A DNA stretch of 64,000 nucleotides from Rhodospirillales bacterium (lineage in GTDB: Bacteria > Pseudomonadota > Alphaproteobacteria > Rhodospirillales > UBA2165), in the NCBI GenBank assembly GCA_012960465.1, contig DUBF01000098.1, positions 4,061 through 68,060 on the forward strand, in the 5' to 3' direction. The position numbers were made by a program, and so were the translations under genes. Of the stretch, positions 21,128-28,461 are shown piece after piece. The notes beneath the pieces are model-generated. The model was not told where the DNA came from, ran no database searches, and was given only the letters and a program-made list of their open reading frames with translations. The first letter of the stretch is position 1; each line of letters starts with the position of its first letter.

Positions 21128-22234
21128 ATGAATGACAAACCAGAGACACAACCCATTCGCACTAATTTTCAAAACCTTCCTTTTTGGAACCCGACAAAAA
21201 TCTACGATCATGAAGTTAATAAAAATATTCATCGTATGGATCTAAATGAATGCCCCTACCCACCATCGCCAAACGTAATCAAAGCTATCCAAAATGTTGC
21301 TCATACGCTTAACCGCTATCCCGATGGAACCTGTCCAGAGCTTACACCCCTAGTTGCAGAACGCTTAGACGTGCCCGAAGAAACAATCACCTGGGGTGGC
21401 GGTAGCACACAGTTGCTGACCAGTATTGCAGAAATATCTGTCGCACCTGGTCAAAACCTTGTAACTCCGCAATTAGTCTGGAAACGTTTCGAGGGTATTT
21501 ATAAAATTGTTGATGCTAATGTAACATCTGTGCCGAATAAATCCAATGGCGCCATTGACATAGAAGCGATGACGGATGCAATTGGTAATGATACTCGTTT
21601 ACTAATCTGCGTTACTCCCAATAATCCGACGGGCATGATGCTAACGGAACAAGAAATTCGTCATATAAGTGAAAATACTCCTGAAAATGTGCTACTCTTT
21701 ATGGACGAAGCTTACCACGAATTTGCTATTCACGCAGGCGGTCCAGACGCATTAGAAATTTTAAAAGATCGAAAAGGACCATGGGCTGTAACACGAACAT
21801 TTTCCAAAGCGTACGCCTTAGCAGGCGTTCGTCTCGGTTATGCGATCTGTAGCTCAGTAGAAATTGTAAACGCCATCCGCATGGTCGCCAGCACCTTCAG
21901 TCTTAATGGTATTGCTGAAGCGGCAGCGGTCGCCGCCTGGAATGAACCCGAGTATACCCAATTTATTTTAGACCAAAATGCTAAAGAACGGTCTCGCGTT
22001 GTAAATGGCCTTCAAGATATGGGCTATAATCCAATGGAGTCCGTGACTAATTTTGTCTCATGCGATATTAAGCATCCTGCAACAGACATCGTCAAAGCCA
22101 TGCGCGCGCGCAGCGTCAGAATTTCAACCGTCGGCGGAAATGAATTTGTAAATCACATTCGTCTTTCAATGGGAACACCAGAAGACACCGACGCATTTCT
22201 AGATAATCTTAAGAAAGTTCTGGATACTTTTTAG
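21128..22234 (+). CDS. HisC-like class I/II aminotransferase
   Basis: A PLP-dependent aminotransferase of the histidinol-phosphate aminotransferase subgroup. The elements are DLNECPYPPSP near the N-terminus, TPNNPTGMML (the Asn/Pro PLP region), FMDEAYHEF with the PLP-binding Asp and Tyr, and RTFSKAYALAGVRLGYAI, whose Lys is the Schiff-base residue and whose Arg binds phosphate or carboxylate. It has 368 residues and a GGAAAA ribosome site. It is not next to his genes; it lies inside the aromatic island, 10 bases tail-to-tail from hpaR. It may serve an aromatic or other amino acid, or be a second HisC. Confidence 0.8.
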   Translation: MNDKPETQPIRTNFQNLPFWNPTKIYDHEVNKNIHRMDLNECPYPPSPNVIKAIQNVAHTLNRYPDGTCPELTPLVAERLDVPEETITWGGGSTQLLTSIAEISVAPGQNLVTPQLVWKRFEGIYKIVDANVTSVPNKSNGAIDIEAMTDAIGNDTRLLICVTPNNPTGMMLTEQEIRHISENTPENVLLFMDEAYHEFAIHAGGPDALEILKDRKGPWAVTRTFSKAYALAGVRLGYAICSSVEIVNAIRMVASTFSLNGIAEAAAVAAWNEPEYTQFILDQNAKERSRVVNGLQDMGYNPMESVTNFVSCDIKHPATDIVKAMRARSVRISTVGGNEFVNHIRLSMGTPEDTDAFLDNLKKVLDTF

Positions 22235-22243
22235 AAAATAGAT

Positions 22244-22714
22244 TTAATTTTTATCCAGTTTTACCATCAAGGTATCTAGCTTTCTATGCAGTTCTTCAAG
22301 CTCGTTGGAGCCTAGCGCTGCAGAAATCTCTTGATATATTGCTTCAGAATTGGGCCCAACTTTGGAAATTAAATCACGCCCAATGGTGGTAATTGAGACG
22401 ATAGTTCGCCGATGGTCCTGCGTATCGAGACTTTTTCTTAGAAGCGACCTTTTCTCCATAGAGCGAATAATACGTGTAATACTCGGCTTCAATAAACAGC
22501 ACATGTCAGAAAGCTCACCCAAATCCTTCTTGCCATGATCAAACAAGGCGCGCAATACGCGCCATTGCTGGTCGGTTAGATTATGTGCCCTTAAATTAGG
22601 ACGAAATCGCTCCATAACAGTCTCTCTTGCACGCAAGAGAGCCATTGGCAACGAGCGTGAAAAATTGCGCAGATTTTCTCTCTCATTTAGCTCTCGGATT
22701 TGTGAACCCTTCAC
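22244..22714 (-). CDS. hpaR: MarR-family regulator HpaR (homoprotocatechuate operon repressor)
   Basis: A 156-residue winged-helix MarR protein. The N-terminal LRNFSRSLPMALLRARE and LTDQQWRVLRAL segments are the features I recognise from HpaR, the repressor of the 4-hydroxyphenylacetate/homoprotocatechuate genes. The DNA-recognition helix (KPSITRIIRSMEKRSLL) and wing (DTQDHRRTIVSIT) follow. It begins at a GTG that shares its G with the TAG stop of hpaG, so translation is coupled. It is thus the last gene of the hpaG operon and likely represses the divergent promoter pair at 24.55 kb. Confidence 0.85.
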   Translation of the reverse strand: MKGSQIRELNERENLRNFSRSLPMALLRARETVMERFRPNLRAHNLTDQQWRVLRALFDHGKKDLGELSDMCCLLKPSITRIIRSMEKRSLLRKSLDTQDHRRTIVSITTIGRDLISKVGPNSEAIYQEISAALGSNELEELHRKLDTLMVKLDKN

Positions 22715-23580
22715 TAAATTACACTTTCATCAACAAACGTATTTTGGAGCTTTCCAACCTTGGGTACTTCAATTTCAAGGCTATCACCAGGCTTTAGCCA
22801 GACTGGAGGATCAAATCTCGCCCCTGCTCCTACCGGTGTGCCCGTTGCTATCAAATCTCCGGGCTTTAATTCGAAAAATGTAGATAGATAACTTAACAAA
22901 TATGGAAATTTAAAAATCATATTAGAAATTGAATCGGCTTGTCTAACCTCATTATTAACACGCGTTTGAATAGATAACTCATCCAAATCTCCAACCTCTT
23001 CAGTAGTTACCATCCATGGACCGACTGATCCACTAGAGACAAAATTCTTCCCTTGGGTAACATTAAATTTAGCGTGCCGCACCCAATCTCGGATAGTTCC
23101 CTCATTCATTATTGAAAGACCAGCTATGTGCTGCAAATAATTCTCTTTTTTTATGCGTCTACCGCCTTTACCAACTACCAGAACAATTTCGCCTTCATAA
23201 TCAAGTTGATCTGATTCAGGTGGGCGTAAAATATCTTGATTATGCCCGACAAAAGATCCTGGGGTACGTAAAAATACGCTTGGAAACTCTGGAGCATCCG
23301 AACCATCTTTATATTCATCATTACGATTGCTGTAATTTACGCCAATGCAGATTATTTTTTCGGGTGAAGGAACTGGAATTTGGAGAACAACATCATCCAT
23401 CAAAAAATCGGGCTCTTGACCCTTAATTTCCGAGTGTATTATATCAATTGCATTTGCCCGTAAAACATCAATCAACGCTGGAAATTCTGACCCTAAGCGG
23501 GTTCCCAAATCGATAATACCGGAATTAATCACTACGCCATAACTAGCTAGCCCATCTTTCTCAAAACTGGCAATTTTCAT
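22714..23580 (-). CDS. hpaG: Fumarylacetoacetate hydrolase family protein (HpaG-like)
   Basis: An FAH-fold enzyme of 288 residues. In the homoprotocatechuate pathway HpaG decarboxylates and isomerises the ring-cleavage product. The C-terminal FAH domain (from about residue 75) has CIGVNYSNRNDE, DYEGEIVLVVGKGGRRI with the metal-ligand Glu, SIMNEGTIRDWVR and LKPGDLIATGTPVGAG, all in normal order. It has a GGGAA ribosome site before its ATG. It lies between the DapA-like gene (27 bases) and hpaR (1-base overlap). FAH proteins vary widely in substrate; the hpa assignment rests on the neighbours. Confidence 0.78.
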   Translation of the reverse strand: MKIASFEKDGLASYGVVINSGIIDLGTRLGSEFPALIDVLRANAIDIIHSEIKGQEPDFLMDDVVLQIPVPSPEKIICIGVNYSNRNDEYKDGSDAPEFPSVFLRTPGSFVGHNQDILRPPESDQLDYEGEIVLVVGKGGRRIKKENYLQHIAGLSIMNEGTIRDWVRHAKFNVTQGKNFVSSGSVGPWMVTTEEVGDLDELSIQTRVNNEVRQADSISNMIFKFPYLLSYLSTFFELKPGDLIATGTPVGAGARFDPPVWLKPGDSLEIEVPKVGKLQNTFVDESVI

Positions 23581-23607: not shown

Positions 23608-24501
23608 TTATAACAGGCCCGCACGCTCAAGGACGCCATCCAGTCTTTTTTCAAGCTCTGGTTCAGCAGGCATCATGGGCAGTCGATGGTGGTTTTCTGG
23701 AATTATACCCAGTCTTTTCATCATATACTTAATGGGAATGGGATTAGTGTCATAAAAAACACTCTGATTAATCTCGAGTAAACGTTGGTGAATCTCTTTA
23801 CCCCGAGAAAGATCATTATCCCAAACCGCTTGGCACATTTCAGCAAGCAAATCAGGCCTAAGATTACCAACTGCATTCATTAAACCCACGGCTCCAATTG
23901 CCATTTCTGGAAAGCTAAGCTCCTCGAGGCCAACAAAGACCAAATAATCTGGAAAAGCATCAATACATTCCGAAACAAATGCAAGATCATTGACGGCGTG
24001 CTTCATACCTATAAAATTTGAAGATCGATCTTTTAGCTCTTTAACGGTTTCAAGCGTTATGGAGACCGCAGCGCGACCTGGGATATGGTATATCATCCAA
24101 GGTGTATCAATACCGTCCATTACATCAAGATAATACTGAACTAAACCACGCTGAGGGGGACTAATGTAATACGGCGTCACGATTAATAAAGCATCCACAC
24201 CCACCTCTGCTGCATAGCGCGTTAGCATTCTAGACTCTGCCAAAGACTGCGATCCAGTTGCTGCTATAATAGGTAGACGCCCATTATTCGTCGCAATTGC
24301 CGTATCTATTGTTTTGTTGCGTTCATCGGCCGTAAGTGTCGATGGTTCAGCCGTCGTTCCATTGACTAAAATACCGTGAGAGCCTTTACTAATCTGAAAT
24401 TCAACTAGACCAGCATAAGCCTCATAATCTAGTTGGTCATTTTTAAAAGGGGTGATGATAGGAGGAATAGATCCTTTTATTTTTGAAAGGTCATAGGTCA
24501 T
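23608..24501 (-). CDS. Dihydrodipicolinate synthase/N-acetylneuraminate lyase family aldolase
   Basis: A 297-residue TIM-barrel Schiff-base aldolase. NGTTAEPSTLTADE is the pyruvate-carboxylate-binding loop (family GTTGE variant), YHIPGRAAVSI carries the conserved Tyr, and IGMKHAVND carries the Schiff-base Lys. It is the first gene of the leftward hpa operon and has a near-perfect AGGAGG site. Members in hpa-type clusters could replace the HpaI aldolase or hydratase, which are not otherwise in this operon; that is inference. Ordinary lysine synthesis is less likely given the operon. Confidence 0.8.
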   Translation of the reverse strand: MTYDLSKIKGSIPPIITPFKNDQLDYEAYAGLVEFQISKGSHGILVNGTTAEPSTLTADERNKTIDTAIATNNGRLPIIAATGSQSLAESRMLTRYAAEVGVDALLIVTPYYISPPQRGLVQYYLDVMDGIDTPWMIYHIPGRAAVSITLETVKELKDRSSNFIGMKHAVNDLAFVSECIDAFPDYLVFVGLEELSFPEMAIGAVGLMNAVGNLRPDLLAEMCQAVWDNDLSRGKEIHQRLLEINQSVFYDTNPIPIKYMMKRLGIIPENHHRLPMMPAEPELEKRLDGVLERAGLL

Positions 24502-24528: not shown

Positions 24529-24582
24529 TTGACACCATATCTAATTTAGTTAACATGTTAATCAATAAATATCTGCTGTCAA
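24529..24582. promoter_or_regulatory. Mirror-symmetric divergent promoters around a 12-bp palindrome
   Basis: The perfect palindrome TTAACATGTTAA occupies 24550-24561. On the plus strand TTGACA (24529-24534) is followed after 16 bases by TAACAT (24551-24556). On the minus strand TTGACA (24582-24577) is followed after 16 bases by TAACAT (24560-24555). Both pairs are symmetric about 24555.5, and the similarity extends beyond the -35 boxes (10 of 12 bases). The rightward promoter would serve hpaF-hpaE-ligB and the leftward one the dapA-like-hpaG-hpaR operon. The palindrome covers both -10 elements, so one HpaR dimer there could close both. Confidence 0.65.
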
Positions 24583-24642: not shown

Positions 24643-25038
24643 ATGCCGCACATCATCATTGAATATTCTGATAATATTGAAAAAAAAATAAAACTAGAAA
24701 CCCTAATAGAGAAAGTCCATGCAACGGCTATTGATACGGGGGTCTTTCCGCTTGGCGGGCTCCGCGTCCGCGCTGCAAAACGTGAACACTATAAAATCGC
24801 CGATGGCCATCCAGATAATGGTTTCATACATATTGAGCTTAAAATTGGACCAGGTCGAGACAAGAAAACTAAAATATCAGCACTAAAACAGATTTTCGCT
24901 TCAGTCGAAGCATATCTAAAACCAGTCCATGAGAATGGCCCACTCGCAATGTCAGCGGAGCTCAATGAATTTGATTCAGAACTCCGTATTAACCAGAATA
25001 ATATGCATAAGTATGTTGAGGAGCGGACAAATGCTTGA
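24643..25038 (+). CDS. hpaF: 5-carboxymethyl-2-hydroxymuconate delta-isomerase-like (tautomerase superfamily)
   Basis: A 131-residue member of the CHMI branch of the tautomerase superfamily. After Met removal the N-terminal Pro of PHIIIEYSDNI is the catalytic base, and the LGGLRVRAAKREHYKIADG and FIHIELKIGPGRD segments match HpaF, which isomerises the ring-cleavage product after HpaE. It is the first rightward gene after the divergent promoter region, about 80 bases from the predicted transcription start. Its TGA overlaps the start of hpaE by 8 bases. Confidence 0.85.
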   Translation: MPHIIIEYSDNIEKKIKLETLIEKVHATAIDTGVFPLGGLRVRAAKREHYKIADGHPDNGFIHIELKIGPGRDKKTKISALKQIFASVEAYLKPVHENGPLAMSAELNEFDSELRINQNNMHKYVEERTNA

Positions 25039-26569
25039 CGACCTTAATATCTCAAAAGATTTAGAAAAAAATATTAATGCTGCTAAAGATTATTTACAGC
25101 AGTTCAAGACTGGTACGATGGGGCACTTTATTAATGGCAAGAGAGCCAACGGTCAGTCAGATCAAATTTTTAAAAATACTTCTCCCGTAGATAGTAGCGT
25201 TTTAAATGAAGTTTACAGCGGTAGTACAAACGATATCAACGAGGCGACTAAAGCCGCATTGATCGCATTTCCAGCATGGAGGGATATGAGTGGAAACAAA
25301 CGTCGTAAAATTCTCCATGACGTTGCTAACAAAATAGTTGAGCGAGCCGAGGAAATTGCCTTTGTCGAATGTATGGATACCGGACAACCACTACGTTTTA
25401 TGAGTAAGGCAGCGCTTAGAGGTGCAGAAAATTATCGTTTTTTTGCCGATAAGGCTGCAGAGGCTACAAGCGGCCATTCAATGCCCGCCCTGGATCATAT
25501 AAACTATTCAATTCGTCAACCGATAGGACCCGTTGGTATCATTACGCCGTGGAACACTCCCTTTATGCTTTCAACCTGGAAAATTGCCCCAGCGCTAGCG
25601 GCGGGCTGTACCGTAGTTCATAAACCAGCTGAGTGGAGCCCTTTAACAGCTATGCTGCTGACCGAAATAATGCACGATGCGGGTATCCCGGAAGGTGTTA
25701 TAAATCTCATAAATGGGAATGGTGAGACGACGGGCAAGGCATTAACCGAGCATCCTGATATTAAAGCGATCGCTTTCGTCGGCGAATCAAAAACGGGAAG
25801 TATGATAATGCGCCAAGGATCCGAAACATTAAAAAGAGTACATTTTGAACTTGGGGGTAAAAATCCCGTAATTGTTTTTGATGACGCCAATCTTGAGCGA
25901 GCTTTAGATGCGGTTATTTTTATGATTTATAGCCTGAATGGTGAACGCTGCACGTCTTCAAGCAGGTTGCTTATCCAAGAATCTATACACGACGAATTTG
26001 TTGATAAGCTGTCAGAGCGTATATTAAAACTAAAGGTTGGTCATCCACTTGATCCGACAACCGAAGTTGGTCCTCTCATACACCAACAACATTTTGACAA
26101 AGTGTGCAGCTATTGGGATGTTGCTAAAAAAGATGGTGCGGAAATAAAAGTAGGAGGACATATAACAAAAGCCATAAGTGGTGGCTTGTTTGTTGAACCA
26201 ACGTTATTCACCAATGCAAAAAATACTATGCGTATTGCACAAGAAGAAATCTTTGGACCTGTTCTCACTGCCATACCCTTCAACACGGAAGAAAATGCGA
26301 TAGAGATTGCAAATGACGTTAAATACGGCCTAGCTGGTTATGTTTGGACCGGCGATGTTGGCAGAGCCCACAGGCTTGGGCGCTATTTAGATGCCGGAAT
26401 GATCTGGATAAACTCAGAGAACAATCGACACCTCCCAGCTCCTTTTGGTGGAATGAAATCAAGCGGTATGGGCCGCGATGGTGGAGATTATAGTTTTGAA
26501 TTCTACATGGAAACTAAGAATATCTGTGTAGCCTTAGATAATCACAAAGTTCCATCGTTGGGAGTATAA
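25031..26569 (+). CDS. hpaE: Aldehyde dehydrogenase, HpaE-like (5-carboxymethyl-2-hydroxymuconate semialdehyde dehydrogenase)
   Basis: An NAD-dependent aldehyde dehydrogenase. Markers are TPWNTPFMLSTWKIAPALAAG, FVGESKTGSM (cofactor loop), HFELGGKNPVIVF with the general-base Glu, and NGERCTSSSRLLI with the nucleophilic Cys; EEIFGPVLTAIPF and PFGGMKSSGMGRDGG close the fold. I use the ATG at 25031 (MLDDLNI, 512 residues), which overlaps hpaF as ATGCTTGA and has GAGGAG upstream; the longer track start runs through hpaF. By position and by the HpaE-like RC-TSSSR active site it should oxidise the semialdehyde made by the extradiol dioxygenase. Confidence 0.85.
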   Translation: MLDDLNISKDLEKNINAAKDYLQQFKTGTMGHFINGKRANGQSDQIFKNTSPVDSSVLNEVYSGSTNDINEATKAALIAFPAWRDMSGNKRRKILHDVANKIVERAEEIAFVECMDTGQPLRFMSKAALRGAENYRFFADKAAEATSGHSMPALDHINYSIRQPIGPVGIITPWNTPFMLSTWKIAPALAAGCTVVHKPAEWSPLTAMLLTEIMHDAGIPEGVINLINGNGETTGKALTEHPDIKAIAFVGESKTGSMIMRQGSETLKRVHFELGGKNPVIVFDDANLERALDAVIFMIYSLNGERCTSSSRLLIQESIHDEFVDKLSERILKLKVGHPLDPTTEVGPLIHQQHFDKVCSYWDVAKKDGAEIKVGGHITKAISGGLFVEPTLFTNAKNTMRIAQEEIFGPVLTAIPFNTEENAIEIANDVKYGLAGYVWTGDVGRAHRLGRYLDAGMIWINSENNRHLPAPFGGMKSSGMGRDGGDYSFEFYMETKNICVALDNHKVPSLGV

Positions 26570-26579
26570 GAAATTTAAG

Positions 26580-26888
26580 ATGAGTCTCTATTATGTTTAA
26601 AACTAATCTATGAATAAAATCGCGATCCAAATACCAGTAAACGCTTCAAAGAAAATCTCGAAGAGTTAATTACAAATTATGATTTGACGGAGGAAGAATT
26701 GACTGCCGCCTGCCAACCACAGATATCAAACCGCTGTATGGTTTAGGTGTTAATGGGCAAATACTAATGATTATGCCGGCTTATGGAAAATGCCATAGGA
26801 CAATTATATACAAGCTATGCAAGATGGAATAAAAGAGCACAAACCACTAAGAAGCGGTCTCTATGCACAAAAAGGGGTGATTATTTAA
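26580..26888 (+). pseudogene. Frameshifted LigA-like (extradiol dioxygenase alpha subunit) remnant
   Basis: No single frame is open, but LigA-like peptide segments run in the right order through shifting frames. MSLYYV opens at 26580. RFKENLEELITNYDLTEEEL is read from 26642. DIKPLYGLGVNGQILM is read in the next frame from about 26725, and YIQAMQDGIKEHKPLRSGLY in a third frame from about 26800. The last ends in a TAA that overlaps the ligB ATG as TAATG, the usual coupling of a ligAB pair. At least three frame changes and one or more internal stops are needed. All neighbouring genes are intact, so decay is more likely than sequencing error, though errors in A/T runs cannot be excluded. The family call is from memory of small LigA-type chains. 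Confidence 0.72.
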
Positions 26889-27709
26889 TGACATTAGTAT
26901 TTGCAGGAGCCTGCTCTCATGCACCCGGAATTACTGGCCGCGCTGAACGCGGCGATCCTATACAACGCGAAAACCTGCTTAAGAATTTTGACCGCATGAG
27001 ACAAGAAATAGAAGGAGCGGGTACAGAAGCTTTAGTTGTTGTTGCTGCTGAGCATTTTGCAAATTTTTTTATGAATAACATGCCTGCATATTGTGTCGGC
27101 ATGGCGGACTATTACGAAGGTCCGATAGAAGACGAAGAGTGGCTTGCAATTAGGCGTGTTCGGGTGCCTGGCAATTCAGAATTATCAGAACGTTTAATTA
27201 AAGTTATTATGAATGACATAGACGTTGCCTATTCTCAAGAGTGGAAATTTGACCATGGCATCAGTGTTCCGCTTAATTTTTTAACACCTGACTATGGAAT
27301 TGAAATCGTGCCTGTAAATATAAACTGTCAGGGTCCCCCCCTTACGCCACTTGGCCGAGCTTATAAATTTGGTCAGGCCCTTCGTAAAGCATGCGATTCA
27401 GTGCCTGAAAAAATTGCGATAGTTGGTACTGGCGGTATTTCCCATTGGCCATGCACGCCTGATTCTGGGAAAATAAATGAGGATTTTGATCGCGAATTCC
27501 TAGATTGTTTTATAAAAAACGATAAAGAGCGCATGTTATCCTTCACAGATAAGTATACATACGAGAATGGGGGTCAAGGAGCATTCGAAATTCGCACATT
27601 TATAGCGATTGCAGGAGCCTGTGAAGGGGCTAAAGGAAATTTGTGGTGTTACGAGCCAATCCCAAATTATGCGGTTGGCTGCACTGTAGCTAAAATGGAA
27701 ATTAAATGA
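26888..27709 (+). CDS. ligB: LigB-type class III extradiol ring-cleavage dioxygenase
   Basis: The catalytic subunit of a Fe(II) extradiol dioxygenase of the protocatechuate 4,5-dioxygenase beta type. The His of GACSHAPGI, the His of AAEHFANFF and the Glu of GAFEIRTF fit the iron facial triad. The His in GTGGISHWP fits the catalytic acid/base, and DHGISVPL and IPNYAVGC match LigB. The true start is the ATG at 26888 (273 residues), after an AGGGG site; the track start lies in the decayed ligA. In this cluster it takes the position of HpaD. Actual substrate (homoprotocatechuate, protocatechuate, gallate or other catechol) is open. If ligA is really dead, this chain must work alone or with another alpha chain. 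Confidence 0.82.
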   Translation: MTLVFAGACSHAPGITGRAERGDPIQRENLLKNFDRMRQEIEGAGTEALVVVAAEHFANFFMNNMPAYCVGMADYYEGPIEDEEWLAIRRVRVPGNSELSERLIKVIMNDIDVAYSQEWKFDHGISVPLNFLTPDYGIEIVPVNINCQGPPLTPLGRAYKFGQALRKACDSVPEKIAIVGTGGISHWPCTPDSGKINEDFDREFLDCFIKNDKERMLSFTDKYTYENGGQGAFEIRTFIAIAGACEGAKGNLWCYEPIPNYAVGCTVAKMEIK

Positions 27710-28461
27710 AAATGGAAAAAGAACTCATTGGACGCACTGCGTTTATTACGGGAGGTAGTAATGGAATTGGTGCGGCAACCGCTCGCATGTTAGCCGTCGC
27801 TGGCGCCCAAGTTATCATTGGCTATAATAGGGGCGTTGAACGTGCTAATTTGCTGTTAAAAGAATTACCCGGTGAGGGACACTCAGTTCAACAGTTAACT
27901 TTAGAAAATAGCAGTTCCGTGAAAAAAGCTGCAAATAAAATAAAATTAAACCATTCAAAGCTCGATATTCTAATAAATTCAGCCGGTTTCACAAAACCAA
28001 TCCCCCATAATGATTTAGATGCTCTTGACGATGACTTAATGGATAAAATGCTTATCGCTAATGTACGCGGACCGTTCGCAGTGATTAGAGAACTGCGGCC
28101 CCTCCTTAAAGTTGCCGGTGATAGCGTCATAGTTAATCTTTCATCAGTATCTGGTTTTAAAGGTACCGGTAGCAGCATAGCCTATGTCGCGTGCAAAGCT
28201 GCAATTGATACTATGAGCCTTGCGCTAGCGCGTGTGTTAGGCCCAGAAATTCGGGTAAATTGCGTATCGCCAGGTGCCGTGGCAACCGACTTTGTTGAGG
28301 GAAGAGATCGTGCGAAACTAAAAAAACTCTCAGAAAATTCCCCCTTGCAAAAAGTTGTTGAACCCGAAGACGTGGCCCTAGCTATCATGGCCTATATTAC
28401 CCACCTAAAACACTCGACAGGGGCTCGAATGGTCGTAGATAGCGGTAATTTTTTGAAATAA
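27706..28461 (+). CDS. SDR family oxidoreductase
   Basis: A 251-residue classical short-chain dehydrogenase. TGGSNGIGAATARML is the NAD(P)-binding loop, NSAGFTKP is the variant NAG motif, the catalytic Ser is in NLSSVSG, YVACK is the YxxxK motif, and SPGAVATDF follows. Its ATG overlaps the ligB stop as ATGA (27706-27709), so it belongs to the same operon. A role such as dehydrogenating a diol or side-chain alcohol to feed the dioxygenase is plausible but not shown. Confidence 0.85.
   Translation: MKMEKELIGRTAFITGGSNGIGAATARMLAVAGAQVIIGYNRGVERANLLLKELPGEGHSVQQLTLENSSSVKKAANKIKLNHSKLDILINSAGFTKPIPHNDLDALDDDLMDKMLIANVRGPFAVIRELRPLLKVAGDSVIVNLSSVSGFKGTGSSIAYVACKAAIDTMSLALARVLGPEIRVNCVSPGAVATDFVEGRDRAKLKKLSENSPLQKVVEPEDVALAIMAYITHLKHSTGARMVVDSGNFLK

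Follow-up and report, generated by a model that had tools for sequence, protein, structure and literature searches.

How might two operons that point away from each other be switched by a single DNA element? A published study describes bidirectional promoters as common, with little known about their control (PMC12825309). We addressed this question at a mirror-symmetric promoter pair in a 64,000-nucleotide stretch of Rhodospirillales DNA (the window). The original prediction held that two hpa-type operons diverge from this pair and that hpaR closes the left one, and profile searches support both points. The genes concerned are, in window coordinates:

22244-22714, minus strand: hpaR, MarR-family repressor, final gene of the left operon (TIGR02337, 149.2 bits, cutoff 121.2)
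22714-23580, minus strand: FAH-family protein (HpaG-like), left operon (TIGR02303, 169.6 bits, under the cutoff of 276.4)
23608-24501, minus strand: DapA/HpaI-type aldolase, first gene of the left operon (TIGR00674, 254.6 bits; TIGR02313, 283.9 bits, cutoff of 396.7 not reached)
24643-25038, plus strand: hpaF-like isomerase, first gene of the right operon (PRK15031, 92.1 bits, under the cutoff of 215)
25031-26569, plus strand: hpaE, 5-carboxymethyl-2-hydroxymuconate semialdehyde dehydrogenase (TIGR02299, 786.6 bits, cutoff 638.35)
26783-27709, plus strand: LigB-type class III extradiol dioxygenase, right operon (PRK13364, 138.8 bits, under the cutoff; TIGR02298 HpaD merely 28 bits)
27706-28461, plus strand: SDR-family oxidoreductase, right operon (profile search; relatives retain the gene order)

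Only HpaR and HpaE pass the curated hpa cutoffs, and the names of the aldolase, FAH, HpaF and LigB genes, which score below them, should be read as family resemblance. The regulator gene is linked to homoprotocatechuate meta-cleavage genes, with hpaE above its cutoff and the remaining enzymes of matching families. The left operon is closely packed: the start of hpaR overlaps the stop of the FAH-family gene, and the aldolase gene has a purine-rich ribosome site immediately upstream. Beyond hpaR lies a HisC-like aminotransferase gene (21128-22234), convergent with hpaR and adjoining it in most members of the genus, which may supply tyrosine or a related amino acid to the hpa-type pathway.

The promoter features between the two operons are as follows:

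24529-24534, plus strand: -35 box TTGACA of the rightward promoter (sequence and promoter scan)
24551-24556, plus strand: -10 box TAACAT of the rightward promoter (promoter scan; A2 and T6 present)
24550-24561, no strand: central palindrome TTAACATGTTAA (TTAA-CATG-TTAA), predicted HpaR operator, spanning both -10 boxes
24555-24560, minus strand: -10 box TAACAT of the leftward promoter (promoter scan)
24577-24582, minus strand: -35 box TTGACA of the leftward promoter

Direct reading and an independent promoter scan both confirmed the predicted arrangement, namely TTGACA-16-TAACAT on each strand, mirrored about 24555.5 over a 12-bp palindrome whose own symmetry is complete (12/12). The two opposed -10 boxes, 24551-24556 on the plus strand and 24560-24555 on the minus strand, share their sequence and overlap by 2 bp inside TTAACATGTTAA. 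Among spacings of 15-18 nt, the rightward TAACAT is the sole -10 box that yields both A2 and T6. All 54 bp of the element form an inverted repeat, and the 28-nt inverted-repeat arms are 71% complementary overall. A further claim, that similarity extends past the -35 boxes, proved overstated: it holds for one base per side (A24528/T24583), and no more than 6 and 5 of the 9 genomes have these bases. While the -35 boxes are perfect, the -10 boxes match the consensus at 4/6 positions and the 16-nt spacer is short, so both promoters may be weak. Judging from the -10 boxes, rightward transcription would start near 24563, about 80 nt ahead of hpaF, and leftward transcription near 24548, about 47 nt ahead of the aldolase gene.

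A chance origin of the mirror promoter was ruled out by a surrogate test, in which none of 200 first-order Markov surrogates of 64 kb contained a mirror pair matching the promoter at 10/12 positions or more on both strands (0.135 pairs per surrogate at 9/12). On composition, one window should contain about 2e-6 perfect TTGACA mirrors with a 12-bp palindrome, and the window holds no second mirror pair of the same geometry with at least 9/12 on both strands. Exact TTAACATGTTAA occurs once in the window and twice in the 3.74-Mb genome. Palindrome counts alone reveal little, because a whole-genome scan allowing up to one mismatch gave 22 sites against 14 for a reversed control, mostly background.

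We consider it very likely that this element is a bidirectional sigma-70-type promoter built around a single HpaR operator. RNA polymerase would bind in either orientation, and because the -10 boxes overlap there would be room for only one polymerase at a time. When inducer is absent, both -10 boxes would lie under a single HpaR dimer bound to the palindrome, and both operons would be blocked, hpaR included, which would constitute negative autoregulation. Release of the dimer by an aromatic inducer, as known from other HpaR systems, would then open both operons jointly.

The regulator in this scheme is very probably HpaR. The best solved relatives of the window protein are the HpaR structure 7el2 and the MarR-family structure 5aip, and the recognition-helix region is alike in the window HpaR (LLKPSITRI) and 7el2 (ILKPSLTGI). 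The original prediction had proposed that the palindrome could be the site for an HpaR dimer, and its form supports this: TTAA-CATG-TTAA over both -10 boxes fits the TTAA-N4-TTAA footprinted in Yersinia, where HpaR protects two 15-bp sites of this form at hpaG1p, one of them centred at -8 over the -10 box (PMC7180172). The same motif stands upstream of hpaG, as TTAATATGTTAA in an E. coli genome and as TTAATATATTAA in Salmonella. Our search for literature on HpaR operators, structure or regulon returned nothing further beyond PMC7180172, and hpa genes go unmentioned in the main text of a Proteobacteria regulon survey (PMC5343134).

A search for the palindrome in the hpa regions of related genomes had been suggested beforehand. 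We compared the divergent locus in nine genomes: seven of the genus, the window included, and two from other genera of the family. The same divergent order, with hpaR ending the aldolase-FAH side, is found in all nine, and their HpaR relatives at these loci are 55-76% identical to the window HpaR. The 12-bp palindrome is invariant (9/9), as is TTGAC on the left (9/9); the right-hand TGTCAA is identical in all but G012, where the box, exact in 8/9 genomes, has degenerated to TTGTTA when read on the minus strand. The distances from box to palindrome show no length change on either side. With the window row counted, mean identity to the window across the nine genomes falls from 1.00 in the palindrome through 0.93 and 0.96 in the -35 boxes and 0.68 and 0.66 in the spacers to 0.51 and 0.36 in the leaders. 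Part of this conservation is inherited, close genera sharing ancestry. In a tenth and more distant genome, G080, the order is retained and the centre has decayed to TGAACATGTTAA.

The exact half-promoter TTGAC-N17-TAACATGTTA was found in 12 of 297 genomes, every one in the family of the window, and in 8 of the 12 it stands on both strands about one centre. All 12 carry hpaR, and the half-promoter is missing from all 12 family members in which hpaR was not detected (Fisher p 7e-7, treating genomes as independent, which those of one family are not). The association is also partly trivial, because most of the genomes lacking hpaR lack the whole cluster. A contig search with HpaR gave only three distant loci, since these patterns need close relatives. 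Taken with the one-sided loci described below, conservation and co-occurrence all fit one operator serving two promoters, and the prediction that a single HpaR dimer would co-repress both operons is well supported.

The shared -10 region could instead be kept mainly so that each operon excludes the polymerase of the other, fixing their ratio, an effect that could also add to HpaR repression. We regard this as rather unlikely. That the polymerases exclude each other follows from the geometry, the overlapping -10 boxes precluding simultaneous occupancy, and the near-perfect -35 boxes are kept on both sides. However, the shared operator alone would explain the overlap, and in the five E. coli bidirectional promoters that have been tested, transcription at the basal level did not suffice for competition, which was seen only upon strong activation (PMC12825309). 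The window promoters, with perfect -35 boxes, 4/6 -10 boxes and 16-nt spacers, could lie on either side of that threshold. Of the earlier proposal that exclusion balances the operons, the exclusion therefore stands, while the balancing remains speculative given the negligible basal competition in the published promoters.

It is improbable that the operator belongs to a different regulator, such as another MarR-family protein of aromatic catabolism. MarR-family sites look alike, the binding of HpaR to the window site is itself a prediction, and outside the cluster a ThDP-enzyme gene is preceded by another exact copy of the palindrome. These points are outweighed in our view by the linkage of hpaR to the site at 9/9 divergent loci, by the co-occurrence across the family and by the match to the footprinted motif. 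More telling than overall co-occurrence are the genomes that have hpaE and lack a detectable hpaR. Three family members are of this kind, and the palindrome is absent directly upstream of hpaE in both of the two with readable upstream DNA. In one of these two, G014, a related TTAACGTGTTAA does occur at L111:3764-3775, where it precedes another small gene at a distance of about 1 kb from hpaE; this counts against our preferred reading, and we cannot explain it.

A slightly less probable reading still treats the TTGAC arms as an extended inverted repeat, one long operator for one or more regulator dimers, with the true promoters elsewhere. Such an operator would agree with the inverted repeat that runs through all 54 bp and with the conserved, fixed distance of the arms, but the arms are exact sigma -35 consensus and the spacers joining them to the palindrome are less conserved (68% and 66%). 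One-sided loci disfavour it further in its pure form. In three same-family genomes, of genus g11, hpaE is separated from FAH-hpaR and retains TTGAC-N17-TAACATGTTA upstream, with the mirror hexamer reading ATCGGC or ATTGGC, not TTGACA. The second exact TTAACATGTTAA of the window's own genome (G000:C123:22381-22392, or L047:8382-8393) likewise has TTGACA-16-TAACAT toward a gene for a ThDP-dependent enzyme (NF006122 family) and no mirror box. At the three hpaE loci and at C123, then, the palindrome is kept and the side with no gene to serve has lost its arm. The palindrome and one -35 box thus form a unit, with a second -35 box only where a second operon needs one, and the -35 boxes therefore act as two promoters sharing one operator and not as parts of one long operator.

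The proposed layout of one HpaR operator shared by two promoters has a counterpart in E. coli bioA/bioBFCD, where one palindromic operator overlaps two divergent promoters and represses both; the BirA repressor and its ligand are unrelated to those expected here. The predicted window operator also resembles Yersinia pseudotuberculosis hpaG1p and the E. coli W hpa-meta promoter in placing TTAA-N4-TTAA over the -10 box, with repression of meta-cleavage genes by a MarR-family HpaR (PMC7180172). HpaR represses the hpaG1 operon in Yersinia, a control likened by the authors to that of E. coli W, and in E. coli W it also controls hpaR (PMC7180172). Gene order differs: in the loci examined from E. coli and Salmonella, it is hpaR that diverges from hpaG, with the palindrome close to hpaG, whereas in the window hpaR comes last in one operon and a single central operator stands between two catabolic operons.

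The bidirectional promoters of E. coli (Warman, Forrest, Stringer, Wade, Grainger; PMC12825309) share with the window opposed promoters, a shared -10 region, exclusive polymerase binding and pseudo-symmetry. In contrast, the window -10 boxes overlap by their AT ends, both -35 boxes are perfect, a repressor palindrome lies on the symmetry axis, and the starts deduced from the -10 boxes would be about 15 bp apart, compared with the common bidirectional distances of 18, 10 and 23 bp, from which small variations are allowed. The closest case in regulatory logic is E. coli acrA/acrR, a bidirectional promoter at which the repressor of both genes is encoded in one direction (PMC12825309). It differs in that AcrR is of the TetR family and competition was studied under SoxS or MarA induction, while the window is predicted to have a MarR-family repressor exactly on the axis.

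The ingredients are thus known: an HpaR operator that covers a -10 box, opposed promoters that have -10 sequence in common, and one regulator repressing both arms (AcrR). What is new is the exact, conserved superposition of the operator on the symmetry axis, which together with the start separation of about 15 bp expected from the -10 boxes and the one-sided derivatives makes this a good model case, not a new kind of promoter. It is conceivable, though we hold it doubtful, that some bidirectional promoters make up a class of their own, where a repressor palindrome forms both -10 boxes, repressor specificity and promoter symmetry constrain each other, and the parting of the operons leads to one-sided promoters through loss of a single -35 box. 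Such a class, if real, would yield simple switching rules for bidirectional promoters. The locus offers a near-perfectly symmetric natural case with one predicted axial operator and one-sided versions both in relatives and in the same genome. Here one could ask cleanly whether a single repressor dimer shuts down the two directions to an equal degree, and whether polymerase competition matters after derepression. With this locus the predicted HpaR operator, and a candidate regulon for HpaR, also reach a lineage whose hpa gene order is quite unlike that of enterobacteria.

Regarding that regulon, the C123 site is a suggestive second target of HpaR, with another FAH-family gene further down its neighbourhood. 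The candidate membership is held at that strength because the exact site is not conserved across the genus: before the orthologous ThDP-enzyme gene, other species of the genus have degenerate forms at best. A ThDP-enzyme gene also starts directly after hpaR in two relatives (L100, G005:C75:2685-4310; L106, G008:C281:16040-16879), encoding enzymes about 41-43% identical to that of C123. This suggests that the three enzymes may share one pathway with the hpaR cluster.

In genus g11, FAH-hpaR has its own TTAACAAGTTAA directly following a TATAAT. In distant relatives (L042, L043 and L045), two hpaR-like genes are near neighbours. The stretch that separates one of them from an aldehyde dehydrogenase gene has TTAACAAGTTAA or TTAACACGTTAA, and TTAACATGTTAG precedes the other; these paired regulators may use slightly different operators.
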